From NCBI GenBank assembly GCA_026770585.1, contig MU646457.1, positions 119,394 through 144,211 of the forward strand: a stretch of DNA of 24,818 nucleotides, read 5' to 3'. Below the pieces are notes generated by a model. It was not told where the DNA came from and searched no databases. It saw only the letters and a program-made list of their open reading frames with translations. Shown piece by piece: positions 4,125-24,515 of this stretch. The stretch is from Baffinella frigidus. Its lineage: Eukaryota; Cryptophyceae; Cryptomonadales; Baffinellaceae. The number at the start of each line of letters is the position of its first letter. Position 1 is the first letter of the stretch. A program made the position numbers and the translations under genes.

Positions 4125-4200
4125 AGGATATGTTCTACACCTTCACGGCGCATCCGACCGACGTGGCGACATACAGCCTCGCAGCTATCGGACCTAGACG
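4125..4200 (+). CDS. Exon E, most complete copy
   Basis: Acceptor gcag precedes it and donor GTACAT follows. The 76 bp hold two leading bases, 24 intact codons (starting DMFYTFTAHPTDVATYSLAA) and two trailing bases. Its entry phase fits the exit of E0; its exit phase fits alpha1 at 7346. Seven or more partial copies lie downstream before alpha1. The protein segment is not recognised. Confidence 0.5.
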
Positions 4201-4642
4201 GTACATGCAGTCCTGGTGCAGGGCCAACACTGTGCGAAGTTAGTGAGATGAGCACTCTTCACTAGGTTAGGACCTTTTTACAGAGCCTGTACGAGGGGTT
4301 GGCATCCGACCGACGTGGCGACATACAGCCTCGCAGCACTCGGCTCTCGGAGTACGCAAACGTAGGGCGTTTTGGGGGGATGGTTATATGTGTACTGGAG
4401 GCTTTGGAATTGGAGCCATTTCTTGAAGCTGTTCCTGGGTTTCGACCAAAAGGCCCCAACGTTCACCAAATCCCCTCTCTCCGACATACAGTCTGGCAGC
4501 TATCGGGCCTAGAAGGTACCACGCACGGTTCTTGGGTTCAGTTGGGGGAACAAGTCAGTTCACACGGAACAACAAGTCAGTTCACACGGAATCTGTGCCA
4601 ACTTGACACACAGTCTGGCGGCAATCGGACCTAGAAGGTACC

Positions 4643-4784
4643 TTCGGGTTTGGGGTTTAGAGGAGGGTATCTTAGCGTTTGTGGTTTGGGTTTAGAGGAG
4701 ACACCTTTAGGGCTTAGAGGAGACACCTTTAGGGTTTAGAGGAGAACCCTTTAGGTTTAAGGGTGCAGGGTTCAGAGGAGGAGG
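4643..4784 (+). repeat. G-strand telomere-like array with TTTAGAGGAGACACC repeat
   Basis: Three to four units combining TTTAGGG with AGAGGAGACACC, plus degenerate flanks. It lies in the intron between copies of exon E. Confidence 0.75.
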
Positions 4785-4801
4785 AGCTTTTATTCGACGT
4801 T

Positions 4802-4964
4802 AATAGGGCAACGGCCCGAAAATGGGGTAGTTAGGCCTACGGCATTGCCTAGGACCTCCTACCGTAGGCCGAGACTTTTTGGTCCTAGGATCCCTCGGCC
4901 TACGGTAGGAGGTCCTAGGCAATACCGTATGCGTAACTACCCCATTTCCAGGCCGTTAGCCTAT
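4802..4964. repeat. Long-arm palindromic MITE, family D, copy 1
   Basis: About 163 bp with outer arms ATAGGGCAACGGCC / GGCCGTTAGCCTAT and long inner arms containing TTGCCTAGGACCTCCTACCG and its complement around a short centre (GACTTTTTGGTCCTAGGATC). Two further near-identical copies are at 13724-13888 and 14494-14656. No coding capacity. Confidence 0.85.
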
Positions 4965-5010
4965 CAACGTATGGCGTCGAGGATAAACGTGATGCGGCGA
5001 GAGAGGAGGG

Positions 5011-5158
5011 GCATTTATCCGGGGAAACCTGTTTTTCTTGAGTTTGATGGCAAGGAAAATCACTACACAATTCGTTCTCATTAGTAATATTAAAGCATTT
5101 ATGCAGTAATTTTCCTTGCCATCAAACTGAAGAAAAATAGGTTTCCCCGGATAAGCAT
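5011..5158. repeat. Fold-back element, copy 1
   Basis: Arms 5011-5064 and about 5103-5158 are complementary over more than 50 bp. The inner part is the family core (GGCAAGGAAAATCACTACAC / GCAGTAATTTTCCTTGCC). The outer part (TTATCCGGGGAAACC and onward) is unique to this copy. The centre contains AGTAATATTAAAGCATTTATG. Confidence 0.8.
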
Positions 5159-5205
5159 TCTGTACCTTCACAGCGCATCCGACCCACCGTCGGTCGGCCC
5201 CGCAC

Positions 5206-5342
5206 ACGCACCCTCTTTCTCCCTCTTTCCCTCTCTTCGTCTCTCACTCCCTCTCGCCCTCTCGCCCTCTCTCCCCCGCTTCCTCTCTCCCTCTCTCCCT
5301 CTCCCTCTCCCTCTCCCTCTCCATCTTTCCCTCTCCCTCTCT
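5206..5342 (+). repeat. CT-rich low-complexity tract
   Basis: About 135 bp almost entirely C and T on the plus strand (CCCTCT/CTCTCT units). It lies between the left and right parts of a copy of exon E (5156-5190 and 5343-5377). Confidence 0.9.
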
Positions 5343-5377
5343 CCGACATACAGTCTGGCAGCTCTCGGACCTAGAAG

Positions 5378-5624
5378 GTACCACGCTAGGTTCTTGGGGG
5401 TTGATCTGGGAGAACAAGTCAGTTCACACGGAATGCGTGCCAACTTTTCGAATTTTCGATTTTCTGTGGGGAAAATGTCGACTAGTGAACCTTCAGAATC
5501 GTAGGGTCCTACGATTTCTCTCGTACGCCAGTAAGCTCTAGAATCTTGTTTGGTACCCTATGACGGGCGTTTTGAGGGAGTTGAGTAGCCCACGGCTGCA
5601 AATAGGCCCACTACGGTTTGTCAG
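5378..5624 (+). other. Intron sequence, no gene seen
   Basis: It contains a repeat of AACAAGTCAGTTCACACGGA (also at 4550 and 4571) and a short perfect hairpin around ATCGTAGG/CCTACGAT near 5498-5514. Confidence 0.4.
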
Positions 5625-5832
5625 GGTTCAGGGTTTAGATGAGAAAGAGAACTTATATTGTCGATCATAAACTTAATCCATCCAGACAGGGCTCGAGGGT
5701 TGCGGGTTTAGGGTTCAGGGTTGAGGGTTCAGGGGTTTGAGGATTCAGGGTGCAGCGTTTAGGGTGCAGGGTTCAGGGTTCGGGGTTCAGGGTTCAGGGT
5801 TCGGGGTTCAGGGTTCAGGGTTCAGGGCTTAG
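5625..5832 (+). repeat. G-strand heptamer array dominated by TTCAGGG
   Basis: After an isolated stretch at 5625-5637, units TTCAGGG, TTCGGGG, TTGAGGG and TTTAGGG run from 5699 to 5832 with period 7. The TTCAGGG variant is homogenised between 5760 and 5826. Confidence 0.85.
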
Positions 5833-5874
5833 GTACCACGCGACATACAGCCTCGCAGCACTCGGCCCTAGACG

Positions 5875-6193
5875 GTATGCATAATGCATCCAGAGAGAGC
5901 TCGTTAACCCCCCTAACTACGCGGGAGAGTCAAAATGTCATTTTACGCCCTGCGTCTTTCTATTATTTCCCCTTGAAATCTGCAAAAGTTGCCGGAAATG
6001 CCCACACATAATTAACTTTGACCCTGCCGGCAACCGCAGGATATGCTTTCCGGTTGCCTAGATAAGACGTCTACCCCTCCCCCGTAGAATGCAACCAGAT
6101 GGGGCTCGTTAACCCCCCCCCCCCTACAAAACCTGCCCGCTTACCGCCGACATACAGCATCCTCGAGTGCTGCGAGGATTCCAAAGCCTCCAG
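5875..6193 (+). other. Intron sequence with a short duplicated motif
   Basis: No gene seen. ATGCATCCAGA...GCTCGTTAACCCCCC (5885-5918) is repeated approximately at 6091-6124. Inverted pieces GTTGCCGG/CCGGCAAC and CCGGTTGCC lie at 5988-6060. Confidence 0.4.
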
Positions 6194-6448
6194 TAGGTTA
6201 GGACCTTTTTACAGAGCCTGCACGAGGGGTTGGCATCCGACCGACGTGGCGACATACAGCCTCGCAGCACTCGGCTCTCGGAGTACGCAAACGTAGGGCG
6301 TTTTGGGGGGATGGTTATATGTGTACTGGAGGCTTTGGAATTGGAGCCATTTCTTGAAGCTGTTCCTGGGTTTCGACCAAAAGGCTTCAACGTTCACCAA
6401 ATCCCCATTATTTCCCCGGCCGAAGTTTTAGCACACGACTCTCCGCTC

Positions 6449-6627
6449 GAGAATGCTAGAGGGGCCTATTTATATGTGGGGTTGTAGACATTTGTACCAG
6501 GATAAGGTATTCCAACTTCGTGACTGGCCAATATATGGCTAGCAACGTGACCAATCAACGAAAGTTACTACACACATGCCCACTTTTTTAAGCACCCTGG
6601 TTTTAAATAGGCCCCTCTCGCGTTCTC
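6449..6627 (+). repeat. MITE-like element, family A, copy 1
   Basis: Terminal inverted repeats GAGAATGCTAGAGGGGCCTA (6449-6468) and ATAGGCCCCTCTCGCGTTCT (near 6607-6626). Inside are TGTGGGGTTGT, TTTGTACCAGGATAA, an ACGTGACCAA segment and the ACGAAAGTTACTACAC core shared with the fold-back family. Other copies: 7007-7215 (inverted) and 21987-22165. Confidence 0.75.
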
Positions 6628-6734
6628 GTGTGGGGAGGTGCACGCGTGCCTCTTCGACTTTCACAGAGCTAGCAATCACCTGTTGGAGGCTGGCAACTGA
6701 GTGGAGGCGCCCCGGCCCCCTCAAAAGCTTCTTC

Positions 6735-6803
6735 CAGGACATTTCGGCCGAGCTCTTCCCAGAGGCGGCCGAGCTGTTCCCAGAGGCGGTCGAGCTCTTC
6801 CCA
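6735..6803 (+). repeat. Short tandem repeat, 24-bp unit
   Basis: GCCGAGCTCTTCCCAGAGGC and variants are repeated three to four times (period 24). In frame it reads ELFPEAAELFPEAVELFPEL. It could be a fragment of coding repeat, but no flanking splice signals or long frame support a gene. Confidence 0.6.
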
Positions 6804-6936
6804 GAGCTGCCTCACTCGGGTTGGCTATTCTCAAGTTAACAGTCTGGGTCCGCGGTACAAATCTGTCAACTTTGGAGCGGGAAACAGCCTGTGCTCACCA
6901 AATCGGTGATCCCCGAATAGACTGAGACAGAGCTAG
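6804..6936 (+). repeat. MITE-like element, family B, copy 2
   Basis: Starts AGCTGCCTCACTCGGGTTGG and ends AATAGACTGAGACAGAGCTA. The termini are complementary (CTAGCTCTGYCTCAGTC-type), so both ends of the family are defined here. The internal AAGTTAACAG...GTCAACTT hairpin is kept. Confidence 0.75.
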
Positions 6937-7006
6937 GAACTTCCACAACCCTCAGAACGCGACCCTGAAAAGGCAGTTTGATCCTCCTAGCTCTGTCGCA
7001 GTCTAT

Positions 7007-7215
7007 CCACTCGAGGCTGGAAGTGGGACTGTTTTAAAACAGGGGTTCTTTTACAAGTGAAGAAAAAAAATGTGTTGTAATTTTCATACACATAGGGGCA
7101 TTTGGTCACGTAGCTCAAGTTATAACTTGAGCTACGTGACCAAGCATGCCCGTGACTGGTACTAAATTTAACAACCCCACATTTAAAATACCCCCTCTTC
7201 CAGCCTCGAGTGTGG
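7007..7215 (-). repeat. MITE-like element, family A, inverted copy with a perfect palindrome
   Basis: Terminal repeats CCACTCGAGGCTGG (about 7007-7020) and CCAGCCTCGAGTGTGG (7200-7215). Read on the minus strand the interior follows the family order (TGTGGGGTTGT, TAGTACCAG, GTGACCAA). It contains a 42-bp perfect palindrome at 7102-7143 centred on TTATAA. Confidence 0.75.
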
Positions 7216-7345
7216 AACTTTGGTTCTAGCTGAAAATTCTGAGCACACGACTCTGATCGTCAGGAGCAGGTACTCGATGGAAGTTCTGAGCACACGACTT
7301 TGATCGTCTGATGTCTGATGGGAGCAGGTATTCGATGGACCTAAG

Positions 7346-7403
7346 GAAGCTGCACTCGTGCCTTGCGCACATCGACGCCGACCGCCACCTCTCCCGCACT
7401 GAG
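7346..7403 (+). CDS. Exon alpha1 (first EF-hand-like loop)
   Basis: Acceptor CTAAG, one leading base, 19 intact codons (KLHSCLAHIDADRHLSRTE) and donor GAG/GTACCC. Entry phase fits the exit of exon E. Joined to beta, it gives a 12-residue loop H-I-D-A-D-R-H-L-S-R-T-E followed by VADIF, which resembles an EF-hand with acidic residues at positions 3, 5 and 12 and a hydrophobic residue at 8. Positions 1 (His) and 6 (Arg) are not canonical, so calcium binding is uncertain. This is the only copy whose acceptor gives the right phase. Confidence 0.5.
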
Positions 7404-7821
7404 GTACCCGGGCACATATGTAGTTATACAGCCTATACATCTACTATACACTAGTTATCCCTTATGTGCCTGTGACGTCCTGAGACGTCAAAAGGTTCAA
7501 ATGTCAACTTTGGCATTTTCTAATTAGGCCGCCTCTTAATGGAAAATTATGAAAAAAACACCAGCTTGTCAGGCTCGCTAAGCTGAACAAATTGAGTAAT
7601 TGGTGCTCAACGAATTGAGAAATTCCTGATTTATGAGACCCGGAAAACCGTCCTCCGCTAAATTGGAATCCCTAGACCTGATTCCTGCTAAAAAAAATGA
7701 TCACGTACCTTTTTCGGCAGATAAGGGATAAAGTCTATAAATGTATTGTACACTGCGTTCCTGGTACGGAATACCCTGTACATCTGTTGTTCGCGGAGCC
7801 CGGTTTGGTGGCCTGGGGAAG
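7404..7821 (+). other. Intron after alpha1
   Basis: No gene seen. AT-rich sequence with a TGACGTCCTGAGACGTCA inverted repeat (7472-7489), and pieces of the TATACATCTA/CACTGCGTTCCTGGTAC repeat that also surrounds the later alpha copies. Confidence 0.4.
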
Positions 7822-8398
7822 CTGCACGCGTGCCTTGCGCACATCGACGCCGACCGCCACGTCTCCCGCACTGAGGTACCCGGGATCCGCGTACAACAGA
7901 TATAAAGGATTTTTTGTACCAGGAACGCAGTGTATAATAGATTTACAGGCTATTTCGTACGTGTACACTAATTACATGTGTGGCCCGGTTTGGTTGCCTG
8001 GGGAAGCTGCACGCGTGCCTCGCACACATCGACGCCGATCGCCACGTCTCGCGCACTGAGGTAACCGGGCCCCGCGTACAACATATATAGGGCATTTTGT
8101 AGCAGTACAATACATGTATAGACTGTATAACTAGTGTACAATAGATGTATACGATATAAACGGATGTATAACCATGTTTGTGGCCCTGTTTGGTCCTCGC
8201 ACACATCGACGCCGATCGCCACGTCCCGCGCACTGAAGTAACCGGGCTCCGCGTACAACATTGTACCTGTACATATATTGTATTTTGTACCAGGAACGCA
8301 GTGTACACTACATGTGCAGGGTGTATCACTAGTGTACAATAGATGTACATGCTGTATAAAGAAGTCGATGGCCCTGCGGAAGCTGCACGCGTGCCTCA
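7822..8398 (+). pseudogene. Tandem copies alpha2 to alpha5
   Basis: alpha2 (7822-7875) and alpha3 (8007-8060) are full-length 54-bp copies with AAG in front and donors GTACCC and GTAACC. alpha4 (about 8195-8237) lacks its 5' third; alpha5 (8383-8398) is only the first codons. Period is about 186 bp. The copies keep the frame ACLAHIDADRHVSRTE, and differ at third positions (GAC/GAT, TCC/TCG, GAG/GAA). Introns between them contain inverted pieces of CACTGCGTTCCTGGTAC and TGTACAATAGATGTATA. They could be alternative exons or decaying duplicates; only splicing data can tell. Confidence 0.6.
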
Positions 8399-8600
8399 CC
8401 CTGAGCCCTAAAACCTACGGTAGGCAACCCGTAGGGGCATAGGGGGGTTCCTACGGTTAAGGTAACGGAAAATTGGGCTCTGGGTGCCTGAAAATCCGTT
8501 CGTAGCCCGCTGTGTGGCTCACCCTGAACCCTCCACCCTATACCCCGTCGATCGCCGATCGACGCCGATCGTGGCGTTGCCATCCCACTAGCCCCTCGAG

Positions 8601-8709
8601 GTGGCTCCAATAGTGCTCGGGGGCATTTTCGATTTACCTTGGATCGAGGTCGGATCCGACCCCGATCCAAGGTAAAATTAAAGACCTTTCAGGGCACGAT
8701 TTGAGCCAC
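8601..8709. repeat. MITE-like hairpin element, family F
   Basis: Ends GTGGCTCCAA / TTGAGCCAC. The centre is a near-perfect 44-bp inverted repeat (8633-8676) around GGATCC with one mismatch pair. Similar small hairpins with GGAGCC/GGCTCC ends lie at 16529-16564 and 16040-16110. Confidence 0.7.
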
Positions 8710-8718
8710 TTGGGATGG

Positions 8719-8805
8719 CTCGTGGTCGACGATCGTCACATCTCGCGCACCGAGGAAGAGCGAATCCAGGAAGACTTGTCCCATTTCATATGGAAAGTCT
8801 TGTAA
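8719..8805 (+). pseudogene. Diverged alpha copy (alpha6), not spliced at the usual site
   Basis: The frame VDDRHISRTE aligns with the C-terminal half of alpha, and four of the codons differ synonymously (GAT, CGT, TCG, ACC). Where alpha1-4 have a donor GT after the Glu codon, this copy continues EERIQEDLSHFIWKVL to a TAA at 8803-8805. It might preserve the sequence that normally follows, or be read-through into unrelated sequence. Confidence 0.45.
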
Positions 8806-8853
8806 ATTAGAAAGTTGGTTTCAAACCAACTTGATAATTTATAAGACTTTTCT
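8794..8853. repeat. Inverted repeat
   Basis: AAAGTCTTGTAAATTA and AAGTTGGTTT pair with AAACCAACTT and TAATTTATAAGACTTT. The perfect centre is AAGTTGGTTTCAAACCAACT. Confidence 0.7.
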
Positions 8854-8892
8854 TTGTTTTTTTGGGGTTTCGAGGTTTCGATAGATTTTATC

Positions 8893-9023
8893 TCGGACCA
8901 TACCAGAATCTGTCCTGATGAAAAGGCGTAAGATAGCATCATTTGATGCCTAAAATAGCATATACACCCTTACCTTCCGCGTGGGGAGCCCAAGATAGCG
9001 GGACAGATTCTGTCTTGGTCCGA
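8893..9023. repeat. MITE-like element with 23-bp terminal inverted repeats
   Basis: TCGGACCATACCAGAATCTG (from 8893) matches the complement of CAGATTCTGTCTTGGTCCGA (to 9023). About 131 bp, no coding capacity. No second copy recognised in this window. Confidence 0.75.
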
Positions 9024-9116
9024 AATCAGATTCACACTCCAGATGTGGATGCACAGAAGGTGTTTCCTAGCTGCGCCTCTTTGGAGTGACTGATCGTTTT
9101 TACGTCCGGCCCGCAG

Positions 9117-9176
9117 GTCGCGGACATATTCACAGCAGTTTCACGCGGGAAGCCCCCCGCACCACTTGCCATCGAC
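9117..9176 (+). pseudogene. Beta exon copy 1 (5' half)
   Basis: Acceptor CCGCAG, then VADIFTAVSRGKPPAPLAID in frame, then telomere-like CCCTAAACCC without a clear donor. It matches the first half of beta5. GCG/GCC and other third-position differences are synonymous. Confidence 0.5.
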
Positions 9177-9363
9177 CCTAAACCCTCAACCCCAACCCCC
9201 AAAACCCAAACCCTAAACTCCAGGTCGCCGACATATGCACAAGAGTCTCGCGTGGCAAGCCCCCCGCACCACTTGTCATCGACCCCAAGCCCTACGCCCT
9301 AAACCCCAACCCCAAAACCCTAAACCCTAGCCCCTACACCCCAAACCTCAAACCCTAAACCTC
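9177..9363 (+). repeat. Telomere-like arrays flanking beta copy 2
   Basis: C-strand arrays at 9177-9220 and 9295-9363 surround beta copy 2 (9224-9294, VADICTRVSRGKPPAPLVID). The first array ends CTAAACTCCAG, and the AG is the acceptor of that copy. Here telomere-like repeat, acceptor, exon copy and telomere-like repeat follow each other with almost no other sequence. Confidence 0.75.
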
Positions 9364-9498
9364 AGACGCTCGCTAGGAACACGCAAGGCAGTCACGACCG
9401 ACCGTCTGGCTTCGGCGTCCGCGTGACCGGTCACGTGGGCGTTCACGAGCCTGCCGGCGGGGCTGTTCCACGGACATATTCACAGGAGTCTCGCGTGC
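9364..9498 (+). other. GC-rich segment with a truncated beta fragment
   Basis: A GC-rich open stretch from 9367 leads into GGACATATTCACAGGAGTCT (9472-9491), a fragment of beta cut off by the fold-back element beginning at 9499. The upstream part is open in a plus frame and in a minus frame (9373-9561). I cannot decide whether it is coding. Confidence 0.35.
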
Positions 9499-9660
9499 AA
9501 TCTCATCCCGGCGAGTATTTCTGAGAAATACGATTTCGGGGATCTCCGATTCGATTTGCAACGAAAATTACTACACGGACGTGACTGAAAATGTCCGGTG
9601 TGTAGTAATTTTCGTTGCCAGGATCGTATTTCTCAGAAATACTACCCAGGATGAAATCGA
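9499..9660. repeat. Fold-back element, copy 2
   Basis: Inner core GCAACGAAAATTACTACAC (9559-9577) pairs with GTGTAGTAATTTTCGTTGC (9600-9618). Outer arms (GAGTATTTCTGAGAAATACG and complement) are specific to this copy and extend to CATCCCGG / CCAGGATG. Confidence 0.85.
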
Positions 9661-9807
9661 GCTTGTAGGGGGCCTGCTCGGCCCTATATGCTGATGTAGA
9701 TTCACGCCCGTCGATACATGTAGTTATACGCGCTATACATCTATTGTAAACTGCGTTCCTGGTACGAAATATCCGTGTTCTGTGCAGACTGTAATGACTA
9801 CATTACC

Positions 9808-9940
9808 CTCCATACAAGTATTAGTTAATTGCTCTTGGGCAACGAAAATTACTACACGATTTGCTTATAAAAGTAATAGTAGAGCATTTGTGCAGTAAAT
9901 TTCTTTACGCCAAAAGCAATTAATTAATACTTGTGTGGAG
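9808..9940. repeat. Fold-back element, copy 3
   Basis: Arms CTCCATACAAGTATTAGTTA (from 9808) and TTAATACTTGTGTGGAG (to 9940) enclose the core CAACGAAAATTACTACAC and AGAGCATTTGTGCAGTAAAT. The arms are again unrelated to those of the other copies. Confidence 0.85.
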
Positions 9941-9957
9941 ATGAACATGCGTCGCAG

Positions 9958-10096
9958 GTCGCCGACATATGCACAAGAGTCTCGCGTGGCAAACCCCCGC
10001 ACCACTTACCATCGACCCCAAGCCCTACGCCCTAAACCCCAACCCCGAAACCCTAAACCCTGACCCCTAAACCCTAAACCCTAAACCCTCAACTTT
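9958..10096 (+). pseudogene. Beta copy 4 followed by telomere-like array
   Basis: Acceptor GTCGCAG, then VADICTRVSRG in frame, but one C is lost in the run after GGC AAA so the following codons shift (near 9991). The telomere-like array 10019-10096 follows and ends TTTAG, which is the acceptor of beta5. This segment is close to a duplicate of 9221-9363. Confidence 0.55.
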
Positions 10097-10098
10097 AG

Positions 10099-10219
10099 GT
10101 CGCCGACATATTCACAGGAGTCTCGCGCGGACAGCACCCCGCGCCACTTGCGATCGAGCTTGGTGGGGGCTTGCTCGACCCCTCGGACTACGAACCGACC
10201 GCCGACCCGTCGCTTATTG
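10099..10219 (+). CDS. Exon beta5 (joins the two EF-hand-like motifs)
   Basis: This is the longest intact beta copy: acceptor TTTAG at the end of a telomere-like array, 40 codons plus one base, donor ATTG/GTATCG. It starts VADIFTGVSRGQHPAPLAIE and ends LLDPSDYEPTADPSLI. The N-terminal residues complete the first EF-hand-like motif begun by alpha. The C-terminal residues plus gamma give a second, ending LIG-LGEF-type. Entry is phase 0 (fits alpha) and exit is one base (fits gamma, which begins with two). At least nine copies of parts of this exon lie within 9.1-11.2 kb. Confidence 0.55.
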
Positions 10220-10380
10220 GTATCGGAGTCCCCCGTACAGGCCTGTGGGTTTTGGGTTCAGGGTTCACGGCTGACGCTTAGGGCTGAGGTATCCCCGCGC
10301 CACTTGCGATCGCGCTTGTGGGGGGGCTGCTCGACCCATCAGACTACGAACCGACCAGCGACCCCCCCCTCATCGGTAAA

Positions 10381-10487
10381 GCTCCGCCTCACTCGAGTGA
10401 CAGACTATCCTCAAGGTGACATGCTGGGTTTGCGGTACCCGTGGGGGGGTGAAGTTGACGTCTGTCAACTTTGAAGCGGGAAAGAGG
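10381..10487 (+). repeat. MITE-like element, family B, copy 3
   Basis: CTCCGCCTCACTCGAGTGAC, then CAAGGTGACATGCTGGGTTT, then GTCAACTTTGAAGCGGGAAA. It lies directly between beta copies 6 and 7. Confidence 0.7.
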
Positions 10488-10568
10488 AAGCTGCTTGACC
10501 CATCGGACTACGAACCGACCGCCGATCCTTCGCTTATCGGTACCGAAGTCCAGTTTATACTCAAAAGA

Positions 10569-10793
10569 CAACATGGTGTCAAATGCTAACATAGTGCAGT
10601 CACCCCCCCCACATGTAAATGTCCCTCTTGGTACTGTTTTCGGGAGACACAGGATTGAAGTCTCCGAGGCCTGTGGTTTCGGGTGCAGCGTTCAGTCGCT
10701 TATCGGTACCGAAGTCCCTTGAAAACAGAGCCAAGAGGGGCATTGACATGCGGGGAGGGTTACTGCACCATGTAGACATTTGACACCATGTTG
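10569..10793. repeat. Long inverted repeat enclosing a beta fragment
   Basis: Left arm 10569-10643 and right arm about 10721-10793 are complementary over roughly 73 bp with a few mismatches (CAACATGGTGTCAAATG, CCCCTCTTGG, CTGTTTTC and complements). The 77-bp loop contains TCGCTTATCGGTACCGAAGT, the 3' end of a beta copy with its donor. Confidence 0.75.
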
Positions 10794-10838
10794 ACATTTG
10801 ACACCATGTTGACATTTGACACCATGTTGGCATTTGAG
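10767..10838 (+). repeat. 18-bp tandem repeat
   Basis: ACACCATGTTGACATTTG is repeated four times with small changes, continuing from the right arm of the long inverted repeat. The single unit in the left arm suggests expansion after the arm formed. Confidence 0.85.
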
Positions 10839-11056
10839 TATGGACCGTCCCTCATCGGTATCCCGCGCCAGGTCATAAGTCGGATTTTCATTTTACTACA
10901 CCATCTACGGGTAAAGTTGATTCTCACCAGGAAAACACGCCAAAAGTGTTGGGAATTGGAGCCCTTCGTGGGCGCTACAATGTTTTTTTGTACCACGAAA
11001 CACTTTTAGCGCGAAACGTTGCGTGTGAAATTCCCACTTGTGAACTGGCGTGGCTT

Positions 11057-11327
11057 GCTCTGCCTCACTTGGGTTGACTGCCAGACTATTCTCAAGTTGA
11101 CATGCTGGGTTTGCGGTACGAATCCGTCAACTTTGGAGTGGGAAAGACCACTCGGAGCACGAACCGCCGATCCGTCGCTTATCGGTAATGCTCCGCCTCA
11201 CTCGGGTTGACTGTCAGACTATTGTTAAGTTGACATGCTGGGTTTACGGTGCACGCCCGTCAACTTTGGAGCGGGAAAGAGCCCGGGCTCACCAAATTGG
11301 TGGGCCCAAATAGACTGGGACAGAGCT
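11057..11327 (+). repeat. Two family B elements in tandem
   Basis: Copies at 11057-11146 (right end lost) and 11188-11327 (complete, ending AATAGACTGGGACAGAGCTG) flank beta copy 10. Both carry CAAGTTGACATGCTGGGTTT or the AAGTTGACATGCTGGGTTTA variant and GTCAACTTTGGAG. Confidence 0.75.
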
Positions 11328-11507
11328 GAGTATCGGAGCCCTCCGAACGTTTATCTGAGAGAACACGGTTGAATCATACTAGTAAAAGTAAAGCATTTGT
11401 TGAGCAATTTTTGTTGGCAGATAAGCCATAAATCAATCCATTCTTGAGGTAAACCTAAAGGATTCAGCCCCATTGTTTTGCCTCCCCCCCGAACCCCCCG
11501 ATTCGTA

Positions 11508-11693
11508 CCTAAACCCCAAACCCCGAACCCCAAATCCTAAGCCCTAAACCCTAAACCCTAAACCCGAAACCCTAAACCCTAAACCCTACACCCCAAACCC
11601 TAAACACCGAACCCCAACCCCCCAACCCCAAACCCTAAACCCTAAACCCTAAACCCTAAACCCTAATCCCTAAACCCTAAACCCAAACCCCAG
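11508..11693 (+). repeat. Telomere-like C-strand array ending at the gamma acceptor
   Basis: CCCTAAA units, several perfect in tandem (11637-11667), end AAACCCCAG at 11693. The final AG serves exon gamma. Confidence 0.9.
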
Positions 11694-17480: not shown

Positions 17481-17488
17481 TGGACTTG

Positions 17489-17722
17489 GACGCGGCCACG
17501 TGTTTAACACTCATCTGTTTCCACATCGGGATGGAGGCAAACCGTGCCCACCTGCTCGAATGGGACGCGGCCACGTGTCTAACACGCATCTGTGTCCCCA
17601 CGAATAGAAAGACGCGGACGCGACCGCGTGTCTAACACGTGTACAACACAGACCCGCGTCCCGTGCGGCAGGATGGACTCGGACGCGACCACGTGTCTAA
17701 CACTCCTCTGTGTCCGCATCAG
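17489..17722 (+). repeat. Repeated 5' part of exon lambda with ACGTGTCTAACAC
   Basis: Four units of about 45-75 bp, each containing a GATGGACTCGGACGCG-type start (degenerate in the first copies) followed by ACCACGTGTCTAACAC and CTGTGTCC. Starts are near 17489, 17561, 17608 and 17670. The last ends TCCGCATCAG, the lambda1 acceptor. Confidence 0.7.
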
Positions 17723-17789
17723 GATGGACTCGGACGCGACGCGGCGCGCGCACGCGGTGGACGACTCCGTCCTCCGCACCGTCCGCCAG
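17723..17789 (+). CDS. Exon lambda1
   Basis: Acceptor GCATCAG, one base, then MDSDATRRAHAVDDSVLR and TVRQ, donor CAG/GTCCCG. Phase fits kappa1 and mu2. Copies lambda2 and lambda3 downstream keep RAHAVDDSVLRTVRQ and RAHTVDDSVLRTVRQ. Confidence 0.55.
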
Positions 17790-17845
17790 GTCCCGCTCCA
17801 AAGTTGCCGGATTTGTACCGTGAAGCCAGCATGTTAACTTGATAA

Positions 17846-18180
17846 AAGTCCTCTTTTCCTAAGTTATGAGGCTCGTTCCCTATGGTTATGAAGCGCGCGC
17901 ACGCGGTGGATGACTCCGTCCTCCGCACCGTCCGCCAGGTTCCCTCTCCCTACGGTTATGAGCCCGTAGAGAAGGTTATGAGGCCTCCCTATGGTATAGG
18001 TCCTCTTTCCCTATAGTTATGAGGCTCCCTACTTATATGAGCCTCATAACCTATGGTTATGAGGCTCTTTCCCTGAGGTTATCAGGCGCGCACATACCGT
18101 GGACGACTCCGTCCTCCGCACCGTCCGCCAAATCCTCTTTATTTACGGTTATGAGCCTCTCGAGACACCGGTTATGAGTA
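17846..18180 (+). repeat. GGTTATGAGGCTC minisatellite with lambda copies 2 and 3
   Basis: CCCTATGGTTATGAGGCTC-type units (about 20-25 bp) occur throughout. Lambda2 at about 17894-17938 has donor CAG/GTTCCC and a silent GAC/GAT change. Lambda3 at 18086-18130 has a good acceptor (TTATCAG), but its donor GT is changed to AA, so it could not splice out normally. Confidence 0.7.
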
Positions 18181-18256
18181 TTCCAGAGCAGTTCTGAAGA
18201 CGCTCAAACCGCACCGCTTGAATTGTCTCGTCCCCCAACCAGTCACATGAATCCTG

Positions 18257-18372
18257 CAGGGGTACCTTGCTCACAAGAAAGCCCCCCCCCCTAGGGCCAC
18301 CATAGGGCCCTAGGCATAGGCCTACTGTAGGGTCCTAGGGAGTGACGGTTTCTTATGAGCAAGGTACCCCTG
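18257..18372. repeat. MITE-like element, family E, copy 1
   Basis: Terminal inverted repeats CAGGGGTACCTTGCTCA and its complement, followed inward by AGAAA / TTTCT. Inner near-palindromic CCTAGG segments (CCTAGGCATAGGCCTACTG). Other copies at 21569-21688 and 22383-22500. In the latter two, TA lies immediately outside both ends, compatible with a TA target duplication. Confidence 0.85.
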
Positions 18373-18394
18373 TAACCCTTCAGCCTCGAAACAG

Positions 18395-18432
18395 GCACCA
18401 TCGCGGGACGAGATCGCCTCGCAGCTGCTCAA
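18395..18432 (+). pseudogene. Mu copy 1 (5' half)
   Basis: Acceptor CGAAACAG, then APSRDEIASQLL in frame, then it runs into the CTCAAACCGCACCGCTT repeat. No donor. Confidence 0.5.
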
Positions 18433-18572
18433 ACCGCACCGCTTCGAGTGGCACGTCCCCTGCGGAAGCTCAAATTACAACTCTTTGACTATCGCGTCCA
18501 ATCAAACCGCACCGTTTCGACAATCGCGTCCCTCAAACCGCAACGCTTCGACTGATCTCGTTCCCGAAACAG

Positions 18573-18638
18573 GCACCATCGCGGCACGAGATCGCCTCGC
18601 GGCTGCTACCGGCACAGCCGTCCTTCTGCCCTGATCTC
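18573..18638 (+). CDS. Exon mu2
   Basis: Acceptor CGAAACAG, 22 codons beginning APSRHEIASRLLPAQPSFCP, and a good donor GATCTC/GTGAGA. Phase 0 at both ends, length divisible by three. Copy mu3 (about 18878-18931) keeps the 3' part and the identical donor. Not recognised. Confidence 0.55.
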
Positions 18639-18655
18639 GTGAGAGCCCTTCTAGC

Positions 18656-18735
18656 GCGCGCGAGAGAGAGAGGGAGAGAGAGCGTGAGAGCGCGACAGAG
18701 AGAGAGCGAGCGAGCGACAGAGAGCGAGAGAAAGA
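18656..18735 (+). repeat. GA-rich low-complexity tract
   Basis: About 80 bp of GAGAGA with GAGCGAGCGACAG variants, between the donor of mu2 and a family B element. Confidence 0.9.
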
Positions 18736-18876
18736 CTAGCTCTGCCTCACTCGGGTTGACTCCCAGACTATTCCCACATTGACATGCTGAGTTTTGGGTA
18801 CATATCCGTCACCTTTGGGGCGGGGAAGAGCCCGGGGGGAACAAATTGGTGAGCCGAAATAGACTGAGAAAGAGAG
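18736..18876 (+). repeat. MITE-like element, family B, copy 7
   Basis: Complete copy: CTAGCTCTGCCTCACTCGGG at the left, ACATTGACATGCTGAG inside, and AAATAGACTGAGAAAGAG at the right. It lies just before mu3. Confidence 0.75.
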
Positions 18877-18877
18877 G

Positions 18878-18931
18878 GACGGGATCGCCTTGCGGCTGCT
18901 CCCGGCACAGCCGTCCTTCTGCCCTGATCTC
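18878..18931 (+). pseudogene. Mu copy 3
   Basis: RDGIALRLLPAQPSFCPDL in frame, ending CTC/GTGAGA as in mu2. The normal acceptor is replaced by the end of the family B element (GAAAGAGAG). Telomere-like CCCTAAAC and CCCGAAA units follow (18949-19047), the latter as a perfect short tandem. Confidence 0.55.
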
Positions 18932-19129
18932 GTGAGAGCCCTGCACGAACCCTAAACTCGAAACTAAACTCGAAAGTGAGAGAGCCCTTTACGAACCCTT
19001 AATTCGAAACCGTAACCCCGAAACCCGAAACCCGAAACCCGAAACCCGACCCTGCATGGTTATCCCGTTCACCGACAGAAACCCGACTCCCTAATCTAAA
19101 AAAGGCTAAACCCGTAACTTTATTTTCAG

Positions 19130-19171
19130 GGGTGGATCCCGGGCGCCTTCTCGGACGCTGTCCGCAAGCGG
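19130..19171 (+). CDS. Exon nu (42 bp)
   Basis: Classic acceptor TTTATTTTCAG, 14 codons (GWIPGAFSDAVRKR), donor CGG/GTCCAC. Phase 0 at both ends. The preceding CTAAT and CTAAA offer branch-site candidates. A G-strand telomere-like stretch (19201-19235) follows. No copies seen. Confidence 0.5.
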
Positions 19172-19235
19172 GTCCACCCCTTCCCCCCCCCAGGACCACT
19201 GTTTAGGGTTTAGGGGTTGGGGTTGTAGGGTTGAG

Positions 19236-19850
19236 GCTGTAGGCTGCCTAGTTGGGGTGCCGCACGGTCTTGGTGAGTGCAGAGTGTAGATTGTCCCCCA
19301 ACCCGTTTCGGTCCTTGAGAATTTAATGTCAAAACATCCTGCCGTCGGGGACTCAGCCTGAACCCATTTCGGTCCTGATCTTCCACAAGAGTTTTTCGGC
19401 GTTTAGGTCCTGATTTTTCGAGGCCTTCACGGAAGAGAATACATGGTGGGCATGTTGGGTGCGATCCGTGATAGAAGCATTGTATCTCTCTAACCCGTAA
19501 CGGTGGCGGACAGCCGTCCGCAACCAGGTCCAACCCCCAACCCCCAAACCCCAAACTGTGGGTTGAGTGGGGAACTCCGACGTTTGCACCTCTGCGGGAT
19601 ACAGGTAGGGAAGCATGCGACCTCCCAGAGAAACGGTGGCTGGGTCCAGTTTTGGAGCTGCAGCTGTGTCACCTACGAACGGCGAAGTAGTTTGCACGAC
19701 GTGGGCATCCGGGAAATCTAGCTCTGCCTGAGTCGGAATTGACTGATCGTTTTCACTCCAAAAGTTGACAGATTTGTACCACAACCCCGGGGAATCAACT
19801 TCCAGTCTCCTCAAAGTCAACTTCCGGTCTCCTCGTTTCGACACCAGATT
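19236..19850 (+). other. Intron after nu
   Basis: Mostly unique sequence. A 163-codon minus-strand frame (19353-19844) and a 114-codon one (19210-19554) are open but show no convincing coding bias; the segment around 19528-19557 is telomere-like. The element-like piece CCAAAAGTTGACAGATTTGT at 19759-19778 is shared with 20473 and resembles an inverted part of family B. Confidence 0.4.
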
Positions 19851-19938
19851 AAATCAGGAACACCATATTAACCTCATCGTCTCTCTCTTTCTCGCTTCGT
19901 GAAGGCATTTACACATGTCTCTCTCTGGCGTGTGTGTC

Positions 19939-20068
19939 AGGTGATGCCGAAGGTCACGTACCCCCCCCCCCCATTTCAGGTAATACTTGAGTTCACGTAC
20001 CCCCCCTTCCCCGGCTTTTGGTGATGCATAAGGCCACGCACCCTGGTCCCAGGTGATGTCTAAGGTGC
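19939..20068 (+). pseudogene. Partial copies of the start of exon xi
   Basis: CAGGTGATGCCGAAGGTCAC (19939), CAGGTAATACTTGAGTTCAC (19977), a weaker one at about 20018 and CAGGTGATG at 20050 correspond to the first codons of xi1 (VMPEVAYPP). The first two run into C homopolymers at the Pro codons. Each has an AG at the homologous acceptor. Confidence 0.5.
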
Positions 20069-20079
20069 AAGCTCAAGTA

Positions 20080-20267
20080 CAGTGGACCTACCCTAACACA
20101 TACCCGTCGGGGCCAGACTGATTGAGTATGTGTGGAGGGTAGGTATGCGTTATGGTGTCCACCCTTCAGGCAAACTTCCTTGCAGGGGGAAATCGGGGGC
20201 CGGCCGAAGGAGTATGTTTGGAGGGTAAGTATGTGTTACGGTAGCCTGTGTTAGGGTAGGTGGACTG
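20080..20267 (+). repeat. MITE-like element, family H, copy 2
   Basis: CAGTGGACCTACCCTAACAC at the left and GTGTTAGGGTAGGTGGACTG at the right are complementary but for one or two bases. The interior is nearly identical to 3572-3754. Confidence 0.85.
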
Positions 20268-20559
20268 CAACGCTCTGTAGCTTGGGTCTCTGTCAACAAA
20301 ATTTACTACATAATTTACGCATGGAGAAACAGTTGACGACCTCTCGCTCTGCCAGAGTCAATTTTTGTCCACCATAAATGTATGTTAGCCGCAGATTTAT
20401 AATGGGATTTCCTGCTCTAATTGTATTTTACTCAGGCAGAGCTAGGATTTGAGCATCCGGGAAACGGTCCACTCCAAAAGTTGACGAATTTGTACCACAG
20501 CCCGGGGAATCAACTTACGAATAAGCCCTCCTGTAACGCTGGCGTTTGGCATGATTCAG

Positions 20560-20652
20560 GTAATGCCGGAAGTCGCCTACCCCCCGGTGACGTCCTCGAC
20601 CGGGATATCGCGCACCCGCCTCGACTCCCGCCTCGCCGAGCACCAACTCAAG
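20560..20652 (+). CDS. Exon xi1 (31 codons)
   Basis: Acceptor ATGATTCAG, then VMPEVAYPPVTSSTGISR and RLDSRLAEHQLK in one frame, donor AAG/GTCATC. Phase 0 at both ends. It is the only copy with both the 5' VMPEVAYPP part and the 3' part. Not recognised. Confidence 0.6.
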
Positions 20653-21255
20653 GTCATCCCGGATTTGTACCGGGAAAATAGATAGACTCGTGGATTTGTA
20701 CCAGAAAAATAGATGGACTTGTAGATTTGTACCAGGAAAATAGATGGACTTGTAGATTTATACCAGCAAAATAGATGGGCACTGTCTGCGAAGTCCCCGG
20801 TGACGTCCTCGAGAGGGATATCACGGACCCGCCTCGACTCTCGCCTCGCCGAGCACCAACTCAAGGTTGTCCAGGGTTTGTACCGGGAAAATAGACGGAC
20901 TTGTGGATTTGTACCAGGAAAATAGACGGACTTGCAGATTTGTACCAGGAAAATAGATGGACATTCTCATTTGTACCAGGAAAATAGATAGACGTGTAGA
21001 TTTGTACCAGCAAAATAGATGGACACTGTCAGCGAAGTCCCCGGTGACGTCCTCGAGAGGGATACCACGGACCCGCCTCGACTCCCGCCTCGCCGAGCAC
21101 CAACTCAAGGTTGTCCAGGATTTAGGACGAACCAGATTTGTACCAGGAAAATAGATGGACTTTGTCATTTGTACCAGGAAAATAAGTGGGCATTGTCATT
21201 TGCACCAGGGGGAAAAATGGACGTGCAGATTTGTACCAGGAAGATAGATGGACAG
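20653..21255 (+). repeat. Xi copies 2 and 3 alternating with a GATTTGTACCAGGAAAATAG minisatellite
   Basis: Units of about 31 bp (GATTTGTACCAGGAAAATAG plus ATGGACTTGTA) occur at 20661-20780, 20873-21022 and 21130-21255. Between them are xi copies at 20794-20865 and 21038-21109, each exactly 72 bp. Both follow GCGAAG, read RTRLDSRLAEHQLK and end AAG/GTTGTC. TCC/TCT is silent; Ser/Pro and Thr/Arg changes occur. No frame disruption is seen in either copy. Confidence 0.75.
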
Positions 21256-21340
21256 TGTCTGCGAAGTGCCCCCTTGAGCTCTCAACCTTCTCTCTTTATT
21301 ACCCTCAGCCTTTTAGAAAGTTATCAACTGAATTACCTAC

Positions 21341-21440
21341 CCTAAACCCTCAACCCTCAACCCTCAACCCTCAACCCCAAACCCTAAACCCCAAACCCCA
21401 AACCCCAAACCCCAAACCCCAAACCCCAAACCCCAAACGC
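21341..21440 (+). repeat. CCCTCAA and CCCCAAA heptamer blocks ending at an acceptor
   Basis: Four to five CCCTCAA units, then about eight CCCCAAA units, ending CCCCAAACGCAG. The AG serves exon omicron. Confidence 0.9.
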
Positions 21441-21442
21441 AG

Positions 21443-21507
21443 GGGTGGCACGGGTGCATGGATAAGATGGACGAACGCGAACCCGGCCACTGGCCCGTCT
21501 GGCTCGA
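21443..21507 (+). CDS. Exon omicron
   Basis: Directly after the heptamer array: GWHGCMDKMDEREPGHWPVW and one Leu codon, then GA/GTAACG. GC3 is high in this frame. A second plus frame across it is open but less biased. Phase 0 in, two bases out. If the donor is not used, a TAA stop follows two bases later, so this could also be a terminal exon ending ...VWLE-stop. Confidence 0.5.
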
Positions 21508-21568
21508 GTAACGTACTCACAGGGCGATTGCGGCCACTTTTGCCGACGTCACCGAAAGTCATCCTCTA

Positions 21569-21688
21569 CAGGGGTGACTCGCTCATAAGAAAGCGCCTCA
21601 TCCTAGGACCCTACAGTAGGGCTATGTCTAGGGCCCTCAGGTGGTCCTTAGGGGGGAGGGGCGCTTTCTTATGAGCGAGGTATCCCTG
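21569..21688. repeat. MITE-like element, family E, copy 2
   Basis: CAGGGGTGACTCGCTCATAA / TTATGAGCGAGGTATCCCTG with TA on both flanks. Inner CCTAGG-type palindrome. Confidence 0.85.
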
Positions 21689-21707
21689 TACGTCTAGGGA
21701 GGGACGT

Positions 21708-21985
21708 TGTGGGTATCTAGGATCTAAGGGCATACAGACGCAAGGTTATGAGGACGCCTAGGTAGATTCACTTAGGCCTCCGAAGTAGATTGAATTAAGA
21801 GAGTTGACTGGAAACTACGGTCCCTCTCAGAGAGAGTTGACTGGTAACTCCGGTCCATCTAAGGTCCGAGGATCCGCTTCAGTAAACGCAACCAAAGACA
21901 GGAGACTCCTCGTGACACCTGGGGCCTGTAGAGTCCAGACCTCATAACCTGGCGTCCTTATGCCATTAGATCCTAGATACCCACA
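21708..21985. repeat. MITE-like element with 48-bp terminal inverted repeats (family L)
   Basis: TGTGGGTATCTAGGATCTAA (from 21708) and its complement (to 21985) extend to about 48 bp with few mismatches, inward to GGTTATGAGG. The interior has two copies of GAGAGTTGACTGG...CGGTCC. A family E copy lies 19 bp to the left and a family A copy directly to the right. Confidence 0.85.
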
Positions 21986-21986
21986 T

Positions 21987-22165
21987 CGGAGGACCCTATT
22001 TACATGTGGGGTTGTACATATTTGTACCAGGATAACGTTGCCAACCTCGTGACTGTGCTAATTTCGCAGAGCCACGTGACCAACTCACGAAATTTACTAC
22101 ACAAACGCCCACTCGCAAAAGAAAACGGCTCAAAACAGGCCCCTCTAGTATCCTCGTGTAGCTCG
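21987..22165 (+). repeat. MITE-like element, family A, copy 3
   Basis: TTTACATGTGGGGTTGTACA, TTTGTACCAGGATAAC, GTGACCAACTCACG and AATTTACTACACAAACGCCC in family order. The right terminal AGGCCCCTCTAGTATCCTCG is kept; the left terminal repeat is degraded. Confidence 0.7.
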
Positions 22166-22318
22166 GGAGTCCGGATTCCGATATTCATTCCCCAGGGCCC
22201 ACGATCCCCAAGCAGGGTGAATTTTGCGCCTGAGAGAGCACCCCGAATACAGTCGATCGAACGGCCCGAGGCGGGCCCGTCCTGGCCTAGCTCCTCACAC
22301 CTCGGGAGTCAACTGCAG

Positions 22319-22351
22319 GCTCACAAAGCTCTGTCTCGAAGCCGTGTCTCT
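22319..22351 (+). CDS. Possible exon pi (33 bp)
   Basis: Acceptor AACTGCAG, one base, LTKLCLEAVS, two bases, donor GTGAGG. Phase fits the exit of omicron. A degenerate copy lies at about 22548-22572 (KLCFETVSR). Very short, so support is modest. Confidence 0.3.
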
Positions 22352-22382
22352 GTGAGGACCTACTCCGCGTACAGCCGACCTA

Positions 22383-22500
22383 CAGGGGTACCTCGCTCAT
22401 GAGAAACTGCCACCCCCCTAGGGACCACCGTAGGGCCCTGGGCATAGGCCTACTGCAGGGTCCTAGGGGTTGGCCGTTTCTTATGAGCGAGGTACCCCTG
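22383..22500. repeat. MITE-like element, family E, copy 3
   Basis: CAGGGGTACCTCGCTCATGA / TTATGAGCGAGGTACCCCTG, flanked by TA on both sides. Inner CCTACTGCAGGGTCCTAGG segment. Confidence 0.85.
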
Positions 22501-22585
22501 TAATGGCCCGATGCGGGCTCGTCTTGGGCTAGCTCCTCACATCAACGAAGCTCTGTTTCGAAACCGTGTCACGGGTCACGAGACC

Positions 22586-22690
22586 TATCCCTCAAGTAGC
22601 CAGGCGGTCAAATTTGACCGCCAAGAGGTCCTAGGCAGGTCCTACGGCCCTACGGCAGGGCGTATGAGCCTACTGGCCACTTAAGGGATA
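22586..22690. repeat. MITE-like element with inner palindrome (family M)
   Basis: TATCCCTCAAGTAGCCAG at the left and CTGGCCACTTAAGGGATA at the right are complementary but for two mismatches. It contains the perfect palindrome GGCGGTCAAATTTGACCGCC (22604-22623). Confidence 0.75.
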
Positions 22691-23030
22691 TCACGACGCC
22701 GTGTCACGGGGCGTCTCGGCCCTCGACGCCGTGTCAGCACGCCGTGTCACGAGGCCACGAAGCCGTGTGTCGAAGTCATCACGGTCATCACGGTCCACGA
22801 AGCCTTGTCACGACCTTATCACGGGTCAAGCAGTCTTATCACGGGTCATCACGACCTAATCACGGGTCATCTCGGCCCACGAAGCCTAGTCAACAAGCCT
22901 TATCACGACCTCATCACGGGCCACGAGACCTGGCCACGGATCATCTCGGCCCACGAAGTCTTGTCACGAAACCTCATCACGGGTCATCACGGGTCATCAC
23001 GCCCTTATCATGGGTCATCACGTGTCATCA
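22691..23030 (+). repeat. ATCACGGGTC / CACGAAGCC short repeat array
   Basis: Irregular units of ATCACGGGTC, ATCACGACCT and CCACGAAGCCTTGTCACG repeat across about 340 bp. The long open frames here (for example 22744-23259) are products of repeat periodicity. Confidence 0.8.
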
Positions 23031-23032
23031 CG

Positions 23033-23570
23033 GCGGACGAGCACGTGCACATCATGCGCGAGCGGGAACGACTGCTTCGCGTCCACGTCCACGGCTGTCA
23101 CGTCCTGGAACGAGATCACCTGTGCACACCAAACCGCACCGTTTCAGGTCACTCGAGATGTTGAAGAAGCTGACTGCTGCCTCGCTGACACCAAATCGCG
23201 CGGTTTCAGCCGCCGCCAGCGAAAATTACTACACAGCTGCTGTACTAGTACTAGTATGATCGTTTTCGTGTAGTAATCGCGAGCGGAAACGACTGCTTCG
23301 CGTCCACGTCCACGTCTGTCACGTCCTGAAACGACATCACCTGTGCACACCAAATCGCAGGGACGTGATAGTGTGTCCGACACACGACGTGTGTATATCA
23401 GCGTGTTGTGGCCTCGAAAGCGCAGGATTTCAGGGGCGTGGACACGTCCACGACTGTCACGTCCTGAAACGAGATCACCTATGCACAGGAAAACGCGACG
23501 TTTCAGGGACGTGGACACTCTCATCAAGGCCTGCAAGGAGATCACCTGCACACACACGGAAAACACGCCT
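23033..23570 (+). pseudogene. Rho exon-like cluster
   Basis: Copies at about 23033-23150, 23278-23360, 23432-23500 and 23507-23560. The first reads ADEHVHIMRERERLLR with high GC3; it may end at CGC/GTCCAC. A block GTCACGTCCTGAAACGAGAT and CACCTGTGCACACC is repeated in each, and ends such as CCGCACCGTTTCAG look like intron 3' ends. The last, after TTTCAG at 23506, reads DVDTLIKACKEI. Exon borders are unclear. A fold-back core (GCGAAAATTACTACAC / GTGTAGTAATCGC, 23219-23280) lies between copies 1 and 2. Confidence 0.4.
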
Positions 23571-23599
23571 CTGCCCCCCCCCCACCCCCCCCCGGTTTA

Positions 23600-24515
23600 G
23601 TCAACTCCCACGAACAAACCACACTTTTTTTCAGTCAACTGTTCCGGGAAGGCACCTGGAGCCCCTCGGCGAGCGCCATCAAGTCTCCTGCCACGCCCGC
23701 CTCCTCACCCAGCACGATGCAGTTGACTAACTCCACGCTTCTCTCGTACTAAACCCTCACGGGTTACTCACCTCCCTGACACAAAAAAACAAAATCTAGG
23801 CAACTGCAGTTGACCAAATATAGTTGGCTAAATTTAGTCGACTACTCCCGGGAAGGCACCTGTGAGTTTTTTTTTGCGGGTGTCTGGTCCGTGAAAGGGT
23901 GCTGTTTTGGGTGTCTGGTCCGAGAAGGGGCGTCGACCTGCAGCCCCTCGAGGCGAGCGCCATCAAGTCGACCGACACGTCCGCCTCCTCACGACGCAGT
24001 TGACTAACTCCACAGCACGACGCAGTTGACTAAATCCACACGTCTGTGGTACTAAACCCTCACGGTTTAGTCACCTTCCAGCAGAAAAAAAATGATCGAG
24101 TGTAGTTGACCCAATTTAGTTGACTGAATTTAGTCGATTGCTGTCGGGAAGGCACCTGAAGCCCCTCGGCGAGCGCCACCAAGTCTCCTGTCACGTCCGC
24201 CTCCTCACCCATAACGAGGGAGTTAACCAACTCCACACTTCGCAGGAACCAAACCCTCACGGTTTAGTCACCTCCCCGGTACAATAGAGAACATTTTTTT
24301 GGTCACCTGCAGTTGACGATATTTAGTTGACATGGTTTAGAGATCACATCGGCCTTGGTCCACTCAGGCTGTATGATCCGCGCCCACAACCACCCGGTGC
24401 ACACCAAAATCTGACGGGTTTGTACTGCAAAATTTAGTTGACTGTTCCGGGGAAGGCACCTGAAGGCCTTCGGCGAGCGCCATCAAGTCGACCGATACGT
24501 CTGCCTCCTCCCCTG
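23600..24515 (+). repeat. Sigma cluster: four units of about 200-300 bp with exon-like block
   Basis: Units share TAGTTGACTGTTCCGGGAAG, GGCACCTG and a GCGAGCGCCATCAAGTC block at about 23648, 23842, 24149 and 24451. The fourth block, 24466-24515, has an acceptor (CTGAAG), one base, PSASAIKSTDTSASSP, one base and donor GTTTAG. GAC/GAT, TCC/TCT, TCA/TCC and CCC/CCT differences among copies are silent in this frame. Two copies read TGA just upstream of the block, so the exon must begin after it. Between units lie GGTTTAGTCAACTCC and AAACCCTCACGG segments. Confidence 0.5.

Follow-up and report, generated by a model that had tools for sequence, protein, structure and literature searches.

Half-copies of exons in the introns of one gene look like debris of repeated local duplication

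Why would the introns of a gene hold copy after copy of pieces of its own exons? The question is raised by a 24,818-nt stretch of DNA (C155:119394-144211; hereafter the window) from an assembly of 382,457,362 bases in 1364 contigs, whose source, judged from the exons and the assembly size, we would say is a eukaryote. A preliminary description had reported that exon-like blocks recur within one gene of this window, and had offered two explanations: a mutational process that repeatedly copies short segments within introns, or a splicing system that uses duplicate exons. Here we find that most copies are half-exons placed around the intact exons by a strict side rule, and that they look like debris of repeated local duplication, not spare working exons.

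As judged from its sequence, the window holds part of an intron-rich protein gene. Sixteen plus-strand exons, chained from 4125 to 23547, yield a single open frame of 381 codons, with no stop in frame vs 8 and 6 stops in the other two frames of the joined exons. An AG acceptor precedes all 16 exons, the donors are 14 GT and two GC, and the phases fit throughout; since exons and borders were picked by eye, with both phase and repeats in view, this fit is weaker evidence than it appears. The joined exons have a GC content of 0.67, 0.50 and 0.82 at codon positions 1, 2 and 3, and the introns of 0.52. Exons measure 40-121 nt, the median intron is 922 nt, and introns make up 94% of 4125-23547. The least certain borders are those of the exons we call gam, fqg and dvd. 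The 381-aa product has no match among 5.8 billion proteins, in Pfam or in PDB, and no relative in genome_contigs. Six whole frames of the window hold no Pfam domain, Rfam and tRNA scans of the window gave no match, and two repeat patterns found nothing in viral_contigs.

We searched each exon against its surroundings, 3 kb each way, with the other exons masked and a local score of at least 36. This returned 38 extra copies belonging to 11 of the 16 exons. Families have 2 to 9 members, main exon included, and each is restricted to its own interval following gene order, as had been described. The 'nearly every exon' of that description comes, at this threshold, to 11/16 here and to 9/18 in a second gene, on contig C840. 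All copies are direct. Within 3 kb and at the same score there are no inverted copies and no matches in the reversed sequence that served as a null, nor are there direct copies in the window farther than 3 kb away. A looser cut-off of at least 34 gave no inverted matches in the whole window; the reversed window at a cut-off of 28 gave one match of chance-level score (31), and the only distant direct match over the whole window was to exon yaa at 10951 (score 30). Only one copy (13545-13612) spans both exon ends, while 31 keep one end and 6 are internal, which bears out the earlier observation that one member of a family has both borders and the rest are truncated. The exon parts of different copies share 18-72 nt at 80-100% similarity. 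Over the two genes, the 62 copies are thus all in direct orientation and within 3 kb, as local tandem duplication would have it.

The border that a partial copy retains predicts the side on which it lies. Over both genes, copies of the acceptor end (exon start) are upstream of the intact exon in 20 cases and downstream in 2, while copies of the donor end (exon end) are downstream in 28 and upstream in none. Hence 48 of 50 partial copies sit on the predicted side (Fisher p 4.9e-12, with each copy counted as independent). Where a direct duplication runs across an acceptor, its partial copy necessarily comes before the intact exon, and where it runs across a donor, behind, so that this side rule is what local duplication predicts. 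Copying to random places would not give it, and neither dispersal nor spare full exons predict it. In both genes together, 20 of the 23 copies extending to the exon start keep AG, and 25 of the 29 extending to the exon end keep GT.

The rule can be followed along the gene, all features being on the plus strand, the exons placed by phase chaining and the copies by the local search. Exon E (4125-4200; 76 nt, AG acceptor, GT donor) is followed by four copies of its 3' part with GT (4482-4513, 4605-4635, 5344-5375 and 5840-5874) and by two internal ones, one of exon positions 26-67 at 4302-4343 (95%) and another at 6233-6274, which sits in a block (6188-6406) with 98% identity to 4257-4475. A 5' part at 5149-5187 also lies downstream, as an exception to the rule; it lacks the AG and adjoins a palindrome at 5015-5154. 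Behind exon alpha (7328-7403) are copies of positions 18-76 with GT at 7817-7875 (97%, within palindrome 7732-7951) and 8002-8060, of 34-75 with GT at 8195-8236, and of 5-36 at 8365-8396. Exon beta (10099-10219) has copies on both sides. Upstream, positions 1-59 with AG recur at 9117-9175 and 9224-9282, each in a 107-nt unit of a visible tandem array (9114-9325), and again at 9958-10015; pieces 7-29 (9473-9495) and 55-83 (9656-9684) lie left and right of a palindrome at 9500-9657 and are probably one copy split by insertion. Downstream are positions 39-110 (10293-10364), 74-119 with GT (10492-10537) and 79-119 with GT (11146-11182), the last flanked by two dispersed elements.

Farther along, exon gam (12026-12090, GC donor assumed) has one copy, of positions 6-65, at 12255-12313, with a one-base deletion and no GT. 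Ahead of exon aks (14061-14128) lie positions 1-30 with GG in place of AG (13270-13299), 1-41 with AG and two deletions (13421-13453), the sole full-length copy, 1-68 (13545-13612), in which the donor is displaced by one base, and 1-40 with AG (13942-13981). Exon lat (14864-14983) is preceded by positions 1-36 with AG at 14353-14387, where homology extends 83 nt into the intron, and followed by 57-118 with GT (15164-15227) and 57-120 with GT (15328-15391, 98%). Exon yaa (15906-15993) has positions 1-64 with AG ahead of it (15688-15748), and exon fqg (16728-16792, start border uncertain) has positions 6-65 with GT three times behind it, at 16954-17013 and 17059-17118 in 105-nt tandem units (array 16932-17161, 99% match) and at 17290-17349. 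Exon mds (17723-17789) is preceded by positions 1-18 with AG (17672-17689), the last among several units of ~60 nt that start at 17481 (units by eye), and followed by 22-67 with GT (17893-17938, 98%) and 21-66 with AT in place of GT (18085-18130). Exon aps (18573-18638) lies between positions 1-35 with AG (18395-18429) and 11-66 with GT (18876-18931). Exon vmp (20560-20652) is followed by positions 23-93 with GT at 20795-20865 and 21039-21109, in visible tandem units of 213 and 244 nt, respectively (20582-21272); a series of its 5' copies is also seen by eye at about 19938-20070. At threshold there is no copy of gam0 (11694-11743), ydv (12653-12692), gwi (19130-19171), gwh (21443-21507) or dvd (23507-23547), the last and least certain exon, which has a GC donor and a repeat cluster just upstream. 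This cluster (23057-23507) and a second (23630-24513), both found by blast, are direct repeats of exon-like blocks that the exon chain covers poorly. Ahead of the interval reported earlier, at 25-674, blast finds a further exon-like block with at least three occurrences.

Within the sequence searched, the families are local to the gene. Against nine other contigs (54,076 readable bases, unmasked, E-value <= 1e-3), 0/16 exons and 0/38 copies found a match, where the shortest copies could hardly reach the cut-off and 54 kb samples little of a 382-Mb genome. A whole-genome search with a 219-nt block containing part of exon E gave four matches in the window and a further one on contig C1090 (75%) that does not run over the E part; by this search the E part appears local to this gene in the whole genome. 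By these searches, of 54 kb for all exons and copies and of the whole genome for the E block, the blocks do not look like pieces of dispersed transposons, the outcome that would have overturned the preliminary description.

Is this gene alone in carrying such copies? One piece of contig C840 (L025) had been drawn without regard to content, and was taken for analysis on account of its conspicuous clusters and of being readable throughout; we extended it by L030. The gene on it, with 18 exons chosen by eye, has 24 copies of 9 exons by the criteria used for the window, and over its 12.5 kb there are again 0 inverted copies, 0 in the null and 0 direct copies farther off. Its product looks, from its sequence, like a coiled coil, and the two genes have no notable similarity (best E-value 0.04). 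On a third contig (C240, L016), one exon is followed by a copy of its donor end (blast; by eye). Of the other contigs, L013, L016, L017, L020 and L024 were read wholly or partly by eye, and L022, L028 and L029 lay outside the exon reading. L013 bears a minus-strand gene seemingly without copy clusters (by eye), so not every gene need show them. As to whether other genes share the pattern, the C840 gene and the single L016 exon do, and the L013 gene seemingly does not.

Differences between main exons and copies bear on whether the copies are alive or dead. In the window, the 38 copies show 154 differences from their main exons, 41, 32 and 81 at codon positions 1, 2 and 3, and carry 11 indels, of which 9 are not multiples of three; 29 copies have no indel. 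For the two genes combined, the three positions receive 22/19/33 of the changes confined to a single copy, 4/3/9 of the sites at which the main exon stands alone against all its copies, 5/3/23 of those at which the copies disagree, and 11/16/36 of those that just one copy covers; the copies, counted here as independent, are not so. This codon-position pattern suggests that a constrained exon shed copies at different times and that the copies then mostly drifted. Because only 1/38 spans both ends, 9/11 indels break the frame and private changes show no more than a mild third-position bias, the copies look dead, and we take them not to be spliced.

Over 52 pairs of neighbouring family members, homology on the intron side has a median of 7 nt; it reaches at least 20 nt in 17/52 pairs, up to 124-160 nt, and fills the whole spacer in 7/52. 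The spacers hold later insertions. When random non-exon, non-tandem segments of matched lengths were searched for local copies, 46/150 had them in the window and 56/150 in L025, whereas exons searched likewise in tandem-masked sequence had them in 10/16 and 6/17 cases, respectively; some random segments may be intron portions of these same tandem units, and the control rate is raised thereby. Non-exon segments are thus also locally copied, and duplication at short range is a general feature of this DNA. That exons of the window show more of it may be because a conserved partner keeps a pair recognisable longer.

We consider it probable that introns here grow by recurrent local duplication together with element insertion, and that half-exons persist through the absence of a partner splice site. 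Recurrent duplication of short stretches that chance to cross a splice border would enlarge introns. Duplication over an acceptor would leave an intron end and exon start ahead of the intact exon, and duplication over a donor would leave an exon end and intron start behind it; small palindromic elements and telomere-like repeats would then insert into the spacers. Under exon definition, a border with no partner border nearby would not be used as an exon, so that half-exons would be tolerated, while complete copies, bearing both borders, would lengthen the mRNA and be lost. Since the intact exon stays conserved, old copies would remain recognisable longer than purely intronic duplicates. Both the duplication mechanism and the exon-definition filter are what we infer from these patterns. 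Of the two options offered originally, the mutational one is supported, by direct orientation, locality, the side rule, tandem units, frame-breaking indels, mildly biased private changes and the second gene. The splicing-system option fared poorly: next to no copies carry a splice site at both ends, and in the one that is full length the donor lies one base off.

Functional duplicate exons, spliced alternatively or in a mutually exclusive manner as in Dscam, would account for the retained splice dinucleotides, the excess of differences at third positions and the one full-length copy at 13545-13612. An alternative-exon cluster would, however, consist of several complete exons, all having an acceptor, a donor and an intact frame, and what we find is 1/38 copies that span both ends, with a shifted donor, and a broken frame in 9/11 indels; the third-position excess among private changes is marginal, and the side rule is left unexplained. 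We regard this explanation as very improbable, and full alternative exons were rejected on these grounds. Pack-type elements are small inverted-repeat elements that capture exon fragments, and the 97% alpha copy inside palindrome 7732-7951, along with other copies adjoining palindromes, would suit capture and spread by such elements. Against this stand the nine contigs with no exon or copy match (54 kb, with little power for short copies), the locality of the E part in the whole genome, and the direct orientation and side rule of the copies, so that capture seems to us highly improbable; dispersal by elements was rejected on the lack of matches on other contigs, the side rule and the direct orientation. 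To an assembly artefact we give almost no credence, with copies 0-20% diverged and interleaved with other sequence, and something similar present on two further contigs, though on one of these in a lone exon identified by eye. Creation of introns inside exons was also rejected, as it is existing introns that gain half-exons.

A process linked to splice borders, in which the duplicated stretch starts or ends within ~10 nt of a splice site through a lesion tied to transcription, an R-loop or element insertion at the border, we hold to be unlikely. It would explain why intron homology has a median of 7 nt against the 18-72 nt, at 80-100%, shared on the exon sides, why so many copies keep AG (20/23) or GT (25/29), and why dispersed elements begin 2-6 nt away from the main mds donor and those of two beta copies, with palindrome 14986-15141 at +3 of the lat donor. 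It is countered by the 17/52 pairs with flank homology of at least 20 nt (up to 124-160 nt), by later insertions that shorten apparent flanks, and by the local copies of non-exon segments. Some of these same facts weigh against the local duplication that we favour. The intron flanks are short, where simple tandem duplication ending at random points should leave longer ones; element insertion near the border would account for part of this, though not clearly all, and simple decay cannot account for the sharp stop in homology because indels within copies are rare. Given the local copies of non-exon segments, the exon-specificity of copying is not clear. Two acceptor-end copies sit downstream, copy-private changes show a slight third-position excess (p 0.048), and the product has no homologue able to confirm the predicted gene. 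Finally, the C840 gene was chosen for showing the pattern, and in both genes the repeats were in view when exons were selected by eye, so that the choice of exons was not independent of the detection of repeats. A wider version, in which duplication with breakpoints tied to splice borders acts genome-wide, genes continually shed half-exons and introns form a fossil record of exon definition, we hold to be doubtful.

Not every repeat in the window belongs to an exon. A family of 89-136 nt, several palindromes and a block at 3570 and 20077 are dispersed elements that occur also on other contigs; the palindromes and the 89-136-nt family match several of the nine contigs searched. A palindromic element lies between copies at 4796-4970, and also at 13711-13895 and 14489-14656 (blast, other contigs). 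The dispersed family is found at 11190-11327 on the plus strand and also at 3476, 6807, 10380, 11054, 15583, 17791 (minus) and 18736. A reversed member of this family at 17791-17850 begins 2 nt past the mds donor, other members begin 5-6 nt past the donors of two beta copies, and palindrome 14986-15141 begins at +3 of the lat donor. The positions of the dispersed elements hint at insertion close to splice sites.

Other features of the introns recur as well. The intron after E opens at its donor with ~100 nt (4201-4304) that are 82% identical to 2772-2874, perhaps a shared introner-like element. Stretches with ends resembling TTGACTAA...TTAGTCAA are visible by eye in introns of both genes (window 23700-24450, L025 1-1500, L031 8900-9850), and degenerate TTTAGGG tracts are present, such as would suit a number of algal and alveolate groups. 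Telomere-like C-rich tracts, with two or more AACCC, occur in the 60 nt before 8/16 acceptors in the window and 12/18 in the C840 gene, against a background among all 60-mers of 8% and 33%, respectively; the G-rich orientation precedes 0/34 acceptors. The C-rich tracts may act as branch-site and pyrimidine tracts.

Exon duplications that are partial or intronic form a recognised class. The 'inter-boundary' and 'intronic' match classes of Exonize (PMC12343006) likewise comprise exon duplicates inside one gene, some spanning exon and intron and some degenerate in introns; there the classes are counted over whole gene catalogues, whereas here most exons have several half-copies under a strict side rule. 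Duplicated full exons underlie mutually exclusive splicing, such as that of Dscam (PMC6071210); there the duplicated exons are also adjacent, with the intron flank partly co-duplicated, but members are whole and spliced in, unlike a set in which 1/38 spans both ends. Repeated introns with inverted repeats are described in Amoebophrya (PMC7789003) and introners also in other eukaryotes (PMC9860276). We find a likeness in small inverted-repeat elements within protist introns and in introns shaped by elements, and a difference in that theirs are introns repeated genome-wide and ours are local copies derived from an exon. Tandem genomic duplication as a route to intron gain (PMC4974935) likewise takes place within a gene and alters its exon-intron structure, yet produces a new intron, where here existing introns receive half-exons. 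Among the matches listed, open-access titles and abstract beginnings describe no genes in which half-copies flank the exons widely and keep to a side rule.

Studies of exon duplication usually deal with full exons that have reached the message; here the debris is visible, orderly and abundant. If our reading is true, these introns would provide a natural test of exon definition, in which a border without a partner is ignored, and intron growth would be datable against the constrained exon. Gene finders may in that case mistake repeat-rich protist introns for exon arrays. If breakpoints tied to splice borders were true as well, the introns would amount to a natural screen of the splice-site arrangements that the cell tolerates unspliced.

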